From assembly GCA_022827405.1 (NCBI GenBank), contig JAJDTA010000195.1, positions 1-38,495 on the forward strand: DNA of 38,495 nt. The letters run 5' to 3'. Shown here one piece after another: positions 29,281-33,257 of the stretch. How positions within the stretch are numbered: the stretch's first letter is position 1; every line of letters begins with the position of its first letter. Source of the DNA: Acidimicrobiia bacterium. GTDB taxonomy: Bacteria; Actinomycetota; Acidimicrobiia; Acidimicrobiales; Bin134. Under the pieces are notes generated by a model. The model worked only from the letters and a program-made list of their open reading frames with translations. It made no database searches and was not told where the DNA came from. Position numbers and translations under genes: made by a program.

Positions 29281-29349
29281 TCCATCGACTGTAGGGGCAA
29301 GAGGAACACGGGGCGGTACTGTGTGGACGACCCCAGCCAAGGAGGAGGC

Positions 29350-29910
29350 ATGGCACGAATTCGGATTCCCGACGGCCCCGAAGAGGAACTGCACCGGTTG
29401 TGGATGATGACGCCGGCGCTGTCCGGACCGGCATCGGCGTTTAGCGGCGCGGTGTACAACGAGAGCAAGCTCCCCGTGCGGCTGAGGGAGCTGCTGCGGA
29501 TGAGGATCGCCCAGATCAACGAGTGCGTGGTTTGACTGGACACTCGCATTGCGTCGTTGGCGCAATATGAACTGAGCGAGGACGACTACCTCAACGTCGG
29601 AAATCGCAACGAATACGACGGCTTCAGCGAAGCCGAGCGGGACGCCCTTGAGTACGCGGAGAAATTCGCGGTCGACCACCTGTCCATCGACCAGGAGTTC
29701 ATGGACCGCATGGTCGGGCACTTCGGCGAAGAGCTGGTGGTGGAGATGACCCTGGCCATCGGCTGCTGGATCGCCTTCGGCCGGCTCAACCAGGTGATGG
29801 ACGTGGTCGTGTCCTGCCCGCTGCGCATGAAGGGCCCCGACGAGGCCCGCGAGGTGCTAGAGGCATCCGACGGCGACCTCTTAGCCATGCGCTCCGCCCG
29901 ATTCGCCTAG
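29350..29910 (+). CDS. carboxymuconolactone decarboxylase/AhpD-like protein with in-frame TGA at the CxxC site (candidate selenoprotein)
   Basis: One reading frame of 187 codons with a single TGA at codon 62 (29533-29535). Start ATG 29350 follows AGGAGGAGGC. Before TGA: LPVRLRELLRMRIAQINECVV; after it: LDTRIASLAQYELSEDDYL. Family members have CxxC here (INxCxxCLxTR), so TGA replaces the second redox cysteine, giving Cys59-x-x-U62. The 125 codons after TGA stay open and family-like to a normal end, so the frame is under selection. A hairpin starts 12 nt after TGA. Selenocysteine is the best reading; a Cys-to-stop mutation is the alternative. CMD proteins act in peroxide defence (AhpD) or aromatic catabolism. 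Divergent from the propeller lipoprotein. Confidence 0.75.
29544..29570 (+). promoter_or_regulatory. candidate bacterial SECIS hairpin
   Basis: ATTGCG (29548-29553) pairs with CGCAAT (29561-29566), closing loop TCGTTGG. The stem extends downward by three pairs (29544-29546 with 29568-29570) past one C-A mismatch, and a C-G pair (29555/29559) can tighten the loop to GTT. The apical G is 20 nt after the TGA, and G-U lies in the loop, as SelB-binding hairpins require. Folded by eye. Confidence 0.55.
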
Positions 29911-29929
29911 CGATCAGTCCAGTCGACGC

Positions 29930-31399
29930 TTAGCGGAACCGGATCTTTTGAACATCGAGGGCGTCAAGACCCTCTTTACCGTCCTGCCTGAGCCAATCGT
30001 CCTGTCCCAACCACATCGGGCGTAGTACCTGTTCGATATCGGGAGTTAGTCGGCTTCCGGCTAGACACCTGACCAATGCCGGGGGCAATTCTCCCAGTGC
30101 TCGAAGTGCCCATAGGCGAGCGTTGTCGCCAAATTGCGTGGCTTCTAGAAGCGAGTCGACGCAGCCGTGGCGTTGAAGGAGTTGGGCGGCAGCAGAAGCC
30201 CGGTTCACTCCTTCTTCGGCCATCCAGCCGACGAGCTTCCGCTGCAGATCACTTGAGAGTTCATCTACGGAGGAAATTGCGTGCAGAGCGACGATGGGTT
30301 CCGGATCGACGAAGTGGTCGATCAGCAATTCTGGGTTCCGCGCCGCCCCTTGTCCCAGTCCCCAAGCTGCTGCCGCCCTCAGTTCATTTGGAAGGTCTGT
30401 TTTCGCCGCAATCCGATCAAGAGCCTCGGCTGCGGCTTCAGACGGGAGTTCTGACATTGCCAGGACTGCCTCCATCTGCTGATCGGCCTCGGATTGGGGG
30501 TTTGAAATCTGGTCCGTGATTCTCCTGACCCAAGGATCAGGTTCAAGCCGTGCTAGAGCGATCTGGGCCTCAAGTCGGACTCTCCAATCTTCGCTGGAGT
30601 CGCTGCTCATACTCGACAGGGTGCTGAACAGTTCGCGAAGCTCCATTGATCCTGCTGCTTTGACCGCTGCATACCGCTCGACGACCTCGCTGGAGTATAG
30701 GGCCGCGGCCAAGTCCCATGAGTCTCCCGAGCACATTGGGTTGGAAGTCTGTTCGGCGACTCCAGCGAGAACTTGTTCGCCGCCCCTTATGAAATCTCCC
30801 GGTTCCGAGTAGATAAATCTCGGACCACCCCAATCTCGCCATTGCCAGTATCGCTGAACTTTCTCGTCCACGCCTGAGAACACGATCCGGCCTTCATCGT
30901 CGACACCGAGATACTGCCCTCTTTTGGTCGGAACCCAACAGGGCCATGTGAGGGTGATTTCGGACCCTTCCGATGCTGCTTTCGGCGCTGATCTCCTAGC
31001 CTGCGCGATGCTGGCTCGGAGTGCCTCAGTCGAAAAGAAGATGGGAGCGCCGCAATGCGGCGGATCCTGGTTGATGTCGGTGTGGAGGAAGGCGAACAGG
31101 TCATCCTGACGCATCCCACCCGCGTCCCACTCTCGGCCGGGAGTGTCCGAATGCGACAGCATGATTTTGAGCTTCGACTTTGCCCTCGACTCCACTCTCA
31201 AGCCACACCGCACACACAAAAGGTCAGGCAGCCGCAGCCGCTTGACCTTTGTCTGCCAAACCTTGTTGGCCATGGCATAGCGCTCGAGCTCAATCGGCTG
31301 GTGATTGAGCTGATTTTGAAGGTGATCGGCCACCGCGGCAGTTCCAATTGCTCCCACCGACACGAAGCGTGCGAAGTCGGCGTCCTCTTTGAAGCCCAC
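29930..31399 (-). CDS. HEAT-repeat protein with possible PD-(D/E)XK-like N-terminal domain
   Basis: 489 residues from GTG 31399, preceded by GGCAGGG; ATG 31444 is open too but would overlap the divergent methyltransferase leader. The N-terminal domain (about 1-170) has FARFVSVGAIGTAAVADHL, then IELERYAMANKVWQTKVKRL, then LPDLLCVRCG and RVESRAKSKL. The order Glu39, Asp59, Glu70, Lys74 resembles a PD-(D/E)XK nuclease core with a stretched E-x3-K. Residues about 250-470 are helical HEAT-like repeats (EAQIALARLEPDPWVRRI, AAAAWGLGQGAARNPELL). It is divergent from a DNA methyltransferase, which suggests restriction. Nuclease activity is inferred. Confidence 0.65.
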   Translation of the reverse strand: MGFKEDADFARFVSVGAIGTAAVADHLQNQLNHQPIELERYAMANKVWQTKVKRLRLPDLLCVRCGLRVESRAKSKLKIMLSHSDTPGREWDAGGMRQDDLFAFLHTDINQDPPHCGAPIFFSTEALRASIAQARRSAPKAASEGSEITLTWPCWVPTKRGQYLGVDDEGRIVFSGVDEKVQRYWQWRDWGGPRFIYSEPGDFIRGGEQVLAGVAEQTSNPMCSGDSWDLAAALYSSEVVERYAAVKAAGSMELRELFSTLSSMSSDSSEDWRVRLEAQIALARLEPDPWVRRITDQISNPQSEADQQMEAVLAMSELPSEAAAEALDRIAAKTDLPNELRAAAAWGLGQGAARNPELLIDHFVDPEPIVALHAISSVDELSSDLQRKLVGWMAEEGVNRASAAAQLLQRHGCVDSLLEATQFGDNARLWALRALGELPPALVRCLAGSRLTPDIEQVLRPMWLGQDDWLRQDGKEGLDALDVQKIRFR

Positions 31400-31462
31400 T
31401 AGGCCCTGCCTGCACTCATGACTGCCGGGAGTGTACCGGCGCATTACCCGTTACTGTCACCC

Positions 31463-33223
31463 ATGGTGGGTAAGGTCGGGGCTGTGAGCAAAACCGGGCT
31501 TCCCGCCCTGCCGTCGATGGTTGCAGTCAAGCGCAGTGACCCGGTGTACATGGCCCACGCATACTTGACCAAAGTGCCGGTAGCGGGGATTGTGCCGTTC
31601 ATCGAGGCGTTCACCAGTGAGGGTGAAGTCGTGCTCGACCCCTTCGCAGGTTCGGGGATGACCGGAGTGGCCGCTCTCATGACTGGTCGTCGAGCACGGC
31701 TGTTCGACGTTTCTGTGCTGGGGCGACACATCGGGACCAACTATGTGAACCAGGTGTCGGAAGAACACTTGCGCAAGAGGGCCGATGAGGTCGTCGAACA
31801 TGCGAGCAATCGTGTTGGCCGGGTTTATGCCGTGAAGTGCGGGCTCTGCGGGGACAACGCAGAGATCGCCAAGACGGTTTGGTCGGCGGTCATGGAGTGC
31901 CCAGCCTGCGGGCAAGACTTCAACTTCTACTACTGCTTGGAAGCAGCCGACTGGAGGAAGACCCAGATGGCTTGCCCTGGCTGCGGTGCGCCAGTTTCGA
32001 GTAGGTGCCAGCGGCTCCATGAGAGACCAGTAGTGGATTCGATTGCCTGTGATTGCTCTCGGACCCAGATCGAGCAGGCCCATCGACCCGCGATTCAGGA
32101 AGCCGACTCGTCCGGTCTGATGTGGCCTGATGTGGACATCGAGGAGTCTCGCCAGATGTACGTTGCCTCTGCGCTTGGTCGACACGGACTGACATCTGTG
32201 GCCTCGTTCTATTCTCAACGCAATCTCTGTGCTCTTGCTGCACTACGCGCCGGGATCGACGAGGTTGATGAAGTAGACCTGCGTGACAAGCTGCGGTTTG
32301 CCTTCACGGCCATATTGACCAGGGCGAGCAAGCGGTACCAGTGGTCGCGTCAGCGCCCGCTCAATGCAGCAAACGCCAATTACTACGTTGCCCCGGTGTT
32401 CTACGAGTGGAACGTCTTCGACCTCTTCAGCAGGAAGGTCGAAGCTGCAATCCGCTCCGACCGGTGGATCGCCGCAGAACGTCGGACTCGCCTCAATTGG
32501 GTCCCTGAAGATGATCCTGGCATCAGCTACCAGCGCGCGAGCGCCGATGACTTGCCACTCGAAGATCATTCGGTCGACTACGTATTTACCGACCCACCCT
32601 TCGGGGCCAACATCTTCTACTCGGATATGAACCTCTTTCAAGAGGCCTGGTTATCTGAATTCACCGACCCGGACAAAGAGGCAGTAATCGACCGAGTAGA
32701 CACTGGCGCCGTCCGGACTGCTGAGCGATACGAGCAGATCATGACTGATGCCCTGCGAGAGTGCCTTCGTGTAGTGAAGCCGGGAGGGTTCATCACCCTG
32801 CTTTTCGGCAACAGCTCTGGAAAGGTGTGGCAGCTACTTCAGCGGTCCATTGCAGCCGCTGGCCTGGAGGTAGTCCCGGAACTCATCGCCATGCTGGACA
32901 AGGGCCAACGTTCAGTGAAGGGGCTTGCATCCGGATTCGAGAACACAGCCACACTCGATCTCATGCTCACCATGCGCGTCGCTGAAGGTGCGGCTGGCGA
33001 GCTGGTCGATCCTCCTGAGACCGCCGTAGAAGAGATCGTTCGACAGCATCTCGCTGAATGCTCCGACCCCAGTCCCAGCCTGCTCTATCTAGAGCTGCTT
33101 CGCCATGGCTTCCGCAATTCCTGGAATCTCAGCCAACTCGACCTCAGCCACGTGACCAAGATCATTGTGAAAAGCGATCGAAAGGTGGACCGTCGCAGCG
33201 CTCGAGTGTTGCAAGAGGTGTAG
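31463..33223 (+). CDS. DNA methyltransferase with zinc-ribbon insert
   Basis: 586 residues from ATG 31463; ATG 31418 and GTG 31484 are other possible starts. The SAM-binding motif VVLDPFAGSGMTG (Asp59) comes first and the catalytic VFTDPPFGANIFYSDMN (Asp377) much later, the permuted order of one group of amino-methyltransferases. About 320 residues separate them and hold CxxC pairs at 126/129, 146/149 and 171/174 plus further Cys near 185-200, likely zinc ribbons. The C-terminal CLRVVKPGGFITLLFGNSS and QRSVKGLASGFENTATLDLML fit DPPF-type DNA methylases. The base target (N6-A or N4-C) is unknown. Divergent from the HEAT protein, 63 nt apart. Confidence 0.82.
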   Translation: MVGKVGAVSKTGLPALPSMVAVKRSDPVYMAHAYLTKVPVAGIVPFIEAFTSEGEVVLDPFAGSGMTGVAALMTGRRARLFDVSVLGRHIGTNYVNQVSEEHLRKRADEVVEHASNRVGRVYAVKCGLCGDNAEIAKTVWSAVMECPACGQDFNFYYCLEAADWRKTQMACPGCGAPVSSRCQRLHERPVVDSIACDCSRTQIEQAHRPAIQEADSSGLMWPDVDIEESRQMYVASALGRHGLTSVASFYSQRNLCALAALRAGIDEVDEVDLRDKLRFAFTAILTRASKRYQWSRQRPLNAANANYYVAPVFYEWNVFDLFSRKVEAAIRSDRWIAAERRTRLNWVPEDDPGISYQRASADDLPLEDHSVDYVFTDPPFGANIFYSDMNLFQEAWLSEFTDPDKEAVIDRVDTGAVRTAERYEQIMTDALRECLRVVKPGGFITLLFGNSSGKVWQLLQRSIAAAGLEVVPELIAMLDKGQRSVKGLASGFENTATLDLMLTMRVAEGAAGELVDPPETAVEEIVRQHLAECSDPSPSLLYLELLRHGFRNSWNLSQLDLSHVTKIIVKSDRKVDRRSARVLQEV

Positions 33224-33257
33224 GGGTCTTCGGTAGGGGCTCTTGACCGGCGGCCTC

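Follow-up and report, generated by a model that had tools for sequence, protein, structure and literature searches.

A CMD/AhpD-family gene with a predicted selenocysteine at its CxxU redox site in an Acidimicrobiia genome

Introduction

A gene whose reading frame carries a TGA exactly where the second cysteine of a redox motif is expected raises a simple question: does that codon end the protein, is it read as selenocysteine (Sec), or is it read as something else? Such a gene lies on contig JAJDTA010000195.1 of an Acidimicrobiia bacterium (assembly GCA_022827405.1), of which the whole stretch from position 1 to 38,495, here called the window, was analysed. A sequence-only reading of the window had proposed that the gene encodes a CxxU selenoprotein of the CMD/AhpD family, a proposal that our comparisons of the site, the SECIS element and the selenium machinery support. 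That reading had also stated that AhpD-like selenoproteins were already described, and the literature from 2005 on agrees (PMC1088965, PMC2398784). CxxU selenoproteins of the AhpD-like and CMD-like types have been known since 2005. They came to light in data from the Sargasso Sea and from Global Ocean Sampling, and recent reviews list them in tables (PMC1088965, PMC2398784, PMC9312934, PMC13188914). Our literature search found no paper on Acidimicrobiia selenoproteins or on their selenoproteome, and nothing relevant on the NCBIfam family NF053654, to which the window protein is compared below.

Results

From its ATG at 29350 to the TAG at 29908-29910 the gene forms a frame of 187 codons, and its sole interruption is the TGA at 29533-29535 (codon 62), exactly as had been reported; the 125 codons earlier given for the part 3' of the TGA come to 124 sense codons when counted. 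The features of the locus, with the evidence for each, are as follows.

29350..29910, plus strand: predicted CMD/AhpD-family selenoprotein gene, 186 aa, CVVU redox site (single-TGA frame; PF02627; orthologues)
29533..29535, plus strand: UGA codon 62, predicted to be read as Sec, second position of CxxU (TGA, TGC or TGT in 91/91 loci)
29524..29526, plus strand: Cys59, first CxxU residue (invariant in 91 loci)
29488..29490, plus strand: Glu47, at the position of the catalytic Glu of AhpD (invariant in 91 loci; CMD structure alignment)
29545..29547, plus strand: Arg66, which is His in solved CMD/AhpD-like proteins (Arg in 91/91 loci; CMD structure alignment)
29339..29346, plus strand: Shine-Dalgarno-like AAGGAGGA 5' of the ATG (sequence; conserved in relatives)
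29548..29566, plus strand: putative SECIS upper stem-loop, AUUGCGUC-GUU-GGCGCAAU, loop G at 29556 (folding, conservation, covariation)

Joined across the TGA, the product matches the PF02627 (CMD) profile at 38.9 bits against a curated cut-off of 23, which places it in the CMD/AhpD family; the match covers residues 30-104 and spans the TGA. Of the 198 TGAs in the window that are flanked by no fewer than 30 open codons in either direction, codon 62 ranked first by codon-usage score on both flanks, and none of the others had a comparable two-sided coding signal. The only table-11 ORF of at least 90 aa in the same frame is 29557-29910. Since this downstream piece alone appears in the ORF list, automatic annotation would truncate the gene. 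An AlphaFold model built from nine close sequences was poor (pLDDT 45) and was discarded.

In most relatives the selenoprotein gene adjoins a convergent epoxide hydrolase gene, a neighbour that does not settle the function of the selenoprotein. In the window an insert of about 3.3 kb (29911-33256) lies between the two genes and carries one gene for a HEAT-repeat protein and one for a DNA methyltransferase, the latter matching the PADLOC type II MTase and PglX-like models. Three relatives (loci L022, L024 and L028) match the insert over the part that their loci cover, and most others lack it; it may be a variable island of the defence type.

Scanning the genome collection, we obtained 12 full-length orthologues in Acidimicrobiia-type MAGs, with 76-99% amino acid identity, and three further loci that are partial. 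All 12 full-length orthologues keep the TGA at codon 62; one is in Candidatus Poriferisocius and two are on single-contig chromosomes (OX638344, OX638350). Sequencing error, one of the objections that the sequence-only reading had itself raised, was rejected as the source of the TGA, because the codon recurs in these 12 other MAG loci, two of them on single-contig chromosomes. Of 296 genomes of the class that were searched with a sensitive method, 63 gave matches. Across 91 homologous loci, among which are the window's own and those of a genome that seems to have been sampled twice (L032/L061), position 62 is TGA in 31 and TGC or TGT in 60, and nothing else. The in-frame UGA therefore stands at the Cys position of the homologues, as the sequence-only reading had held, and relatives with neither Cys nor Sec at this position, which that reading had named as evidence against itself, are not found among the 91. 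Glu47, Asn57, Cys59 and Arg66 are invariant in these loci.

Outside the class, the strong matches from 396 genomes sampled phylum-wide showed no in-frame stop. Two Streptomycetaceae relatives were read directly, namely those of Embleya sp. NBC_00888 (INGCIFCLDWRTE) and Streptomyces (WP_266619777.1). Both are about 38-42% identical to the window protein and share its pattern as Cys-x-x-Cys-x-x-x-Arg, but they have Cys at the window's Sec position and no in-frame TGA. On a quick maximum-likelihood tree in which the Sec column was masked, about 10 changes between Sec and Cys are needed, and well-supported branches force at least two of them. Synonymous variation in codons 59-74 is reduced among 13 close sequences at a borderline level (p = 0.055), and synonymous-site conservation was accordingly set aside as a stand-alone test.

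A hairpin with a 6-bp stem had been noticed 12 nt past the TGA. We find it starting at the 13th nucleotide past the UGA, conserved in position and structure, with the stem AUUGCG...CGCAAU, inner U-G and C-G pairs and the loop GUU. Published bSECIS criteria are a loop of 3-9 nt with G in the first two loop positions, a distance of 16-37 nt from the UGA, a stem of 4-16 bp and an MFE <= -7.5 (PMC13188914); the window element lies within these ranges, with the loop GUU, 20 nt from UGA to loop, an 8-bp stem and a hairpin energy of -8.0 kcal/mol. Folded alone, the hairpin is unremarkable (z = -1.55), and single-sequence folding, unconvincing as proof of a SECIS, was replaced by comparison across genomes.

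In all 23 distinct Sec loci the loop G is the 21st nucleotide past the UGA and is followed by G or U. At this fixed distance 22 of the 23 form a G[GU] loop on a 6-bp stem, against 0 of 60 Cys loci, which were scored under the same rule as a control. Relaxing the stem to at least 5 bp gives 22/23 and 1/60 (Fisher 7.5e-18, a p-value that is descriptive since the rule for register and loop was set after the Sec loci had been viewed and the loci are related). If the same amino acids are encoded by random synonymous codons, the feature arises with a mean probability of 0.0065. For 15 Sec sequences that share one register, the covariation score reaches 0.538 and stays at or below 0.12 once the partners are slid by 1-3 columns; five of the eight stem pairs change on both sides, as compensatory changes do, and 95% of cells pair. 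Three Sec loci (L064, L065 and L102) differ from the rest in the pairing register of the stem, the two registers lying one nucleotide apart, and the distance of the loop G-U from the UGA is the same in both.

SelA, SelB and SelD are all encoded in the window's genome (profile matches of 405, 274 and 352 bits, respectively), with selA and selB side by side on contig C226 and also on C163. These two selA-selB copies are 87% identical over 5.2 kb, so the bin, whose contamination is 5.3%, probably holds sequence of two populations, and the machinery genes could in principle stem from the second. Of the selA, selB, selD and tRNA-Sec (selC) genes that the sequence-only reading had listed as a check, the first three are present, and tRNA-Sec was not recovered in the bin, either with the Rfam model or with a DNA query from the selC region of a relative. 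Ten of 11 close relatives have a tRNA-Sec above the Rfam cut-off; the anticodon is TCA in the six that were read with ARAGORN, and in one relative (L045) the gene lies beside an apparent sigma-factor gene. In the window's genome the homologous selC neighbourhood stops 140 bases short of the C226 end. The sequence past that point (G000:C226:17586-17725), the place of selC in relatives, no longer matches theirs except for a short 3' tRNA-like piece, ATTCGATTCCCGTCCA, which may mark an assembly break or an integration site; we take it as an assembly break, not as proof of absence. Among the 63 genomes with matches, selA or tRNA-Sec was found in 15/15 with a Sec form and in 28/48 with Cys forms only (p = 0.0014).

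Two other genes of this genome carry an in-frame TGA. In selD (G000:C40:5922-6866, L018) it stands at the catalytic position (SHGAGUAGKL), so the selenophosphate synthetase is itself a predicted selenoprotein. A second CMD-family gene (G000:C23:32413-32589, L151) has it at the CxxU site (VNDCNIUKNLRF), with the hairpin GCUUCGC-AGGU-GCGAAGC just 3' of the TGA, and is a candidate selenoprotein of the same kind.

Discussion

The in-frame TGA almost certainly encodes Sec, placed in the active site of a redox enzyme of the AhpD/CMD family. We are highly confident in a reading, drawn from sequence comparison, in which the gene product is a CMD/AhpD-like protein of 186 aa that works by thiol/selenol redox chemistry at a Cys59-Val-Val-Sec62 site, UGA 62 being translated as Sec by way of the SECIS and SelB. 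Comparison across genomes shows the recoding site, the conservation of the SECIS, the exchange of Sec and Cys and the presence of the machinery genes, and we infer that Sec is inserted in the living cell.

We propose the following model. UGA 62 would be decoded by Sec-tRNA(Sec) carried by SelB, which would be recruited by the stem-loop 13-31 nt 3' of the UGA with G-U in its apical loop. SelD would provide the selenophosphate and SelA the Sec-tRNA, and translation would proceed past UGA 62 to the TAG at 29908. In the resulting protein the Sec selenol would most likely attack a peroxide or another oxidant, Cys59 would resolve Sec62 as a selenenylsulfide, and Glu47 and Arg66 would occupy the places of the AhpD Glu and His.

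The catalytic residues of AhpD sensu stricto are E-x11-C-x2-C-x3-H. In the window protein Glu47 lies 12 residues N-terminal of Cys59, so that it has both the Glu and the CxxC/U pair, but Arg stands in for the His in 91/91 loci, for which reason we file the protein only as CMD/AhpD-like. Profile comparison relates the family to PA0269 (E = 2.8e-19), to an AhpD (3e-7), and also to Atu0492 and the Bmp8 debrominase. In alignments with four solved proteins of the same family, PA0269 (2o4d), Atu0492 (2gmy), the Bmp8 debrominase (6ohi) and AhpD (6k40), Glu47 and the CxxU pair fall on their Glu and CxxC, whereas all four have CxxC in place of CxxU and His in place of Arg66. The simplest reading is that the protein would act as a thiol/selenol peroxidase or a disulfide-type reductase, a chemistry that we infer from the family. 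The Glu-Cys-Sec-Arg site might instead mark out a subfamily of CMD selenoenzymes whose chemistry differs from that of the AhpD peroxidases, for example a Bmp8-like reductive dehalogenation in which Arg66 binds an anionic substrate; we regard this as improbable.

Could the codon be read without selenium, as Cys by a UGA-reading tRNA or as Trp? Cys is the alternative residue at position 62, and some bacteria have unusual variants of tRNA-Sec or of a tRNA-Cys that reads UGA. Given that selA, selB and selD are present in the genome, that relatives have an ordinary tRNA-Sec, that the SECIS occurs in TGA forms only, and that Trp is never seen at the site in the 91 loci, we consider such decoding very unlikely. 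We give still less credence to a pseudogene in which the TGA is a fresh nonsense mutation that leaves only a 61-aa fragment. Although the frame does contain a stop codon and the fragment 3' of it is the one piece that passes as an ordinary ORF, the same TGA is found in the 12 other MAG loci down to 76% identity, residues flanking the site on either side do not vary in the wider family, homologues have Sec or Cys codons only at the site, and the SECIS tracks TGA, not Cys. Just as unlikely is the idea of two proteins, a 61-aa N-terminal peptide and an independent C-terminal product from the TTG at 29557, as the TTG-started 117-aa ORF, though present, begins within the SECIS hairpin and splits the CMD domain beside the active site, and a conserved Shine-Dalgarno-like sequence stands before the ATG at 29350.

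Read as a selenoprotein, the window protein has several known counterparts. Compared by description, AhpD-like 1 (COG2128) and AhpD-like 2 (pfam02627) of marine metagenomes share with it the CMD/AhpD domain, Sec at the second position of CxxU and a bacterial SECIS just 3', and are likewise from marine bacteria (PMC1088965, PMC2398784); the window gene differs in belonging to Acidimicrobiia genomes and in having Arg four residues past the Sec. The CMD-like PF02627 protein MBW1767730.1, also compared by description, has the Pfam family and CxxU in common with it (PMC9312934, PMC13188914). The best NCBIfam match of the window protein is NF053654, YciW-related (seleno)protein, which aligns across the Sec site at 47.8 bits; this is far under the cut-off of 310 bits for membership, and the two are probably related but separate subfamilies. 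As judged from these sequence matches, the window gene extends the known CxxU AhpD/CMD selenoprotein class with what is probably a subfamily of its own, scoring below the NCBIfam (seleno)protein cut-offs.

The locus offers a clean example of a single catalytic position that has switched between Sec and Cys, probably on several occasions, and at which only the Sec forms have the SECIS. It places Sec decoding and three UGA-bearing genes, the two CMD-family genes and selD, in marine and sponge-associated Acidimicrobiia. Standard annotation would split the selenoprotein gene in two, and its orthologues would be truncated likewise.
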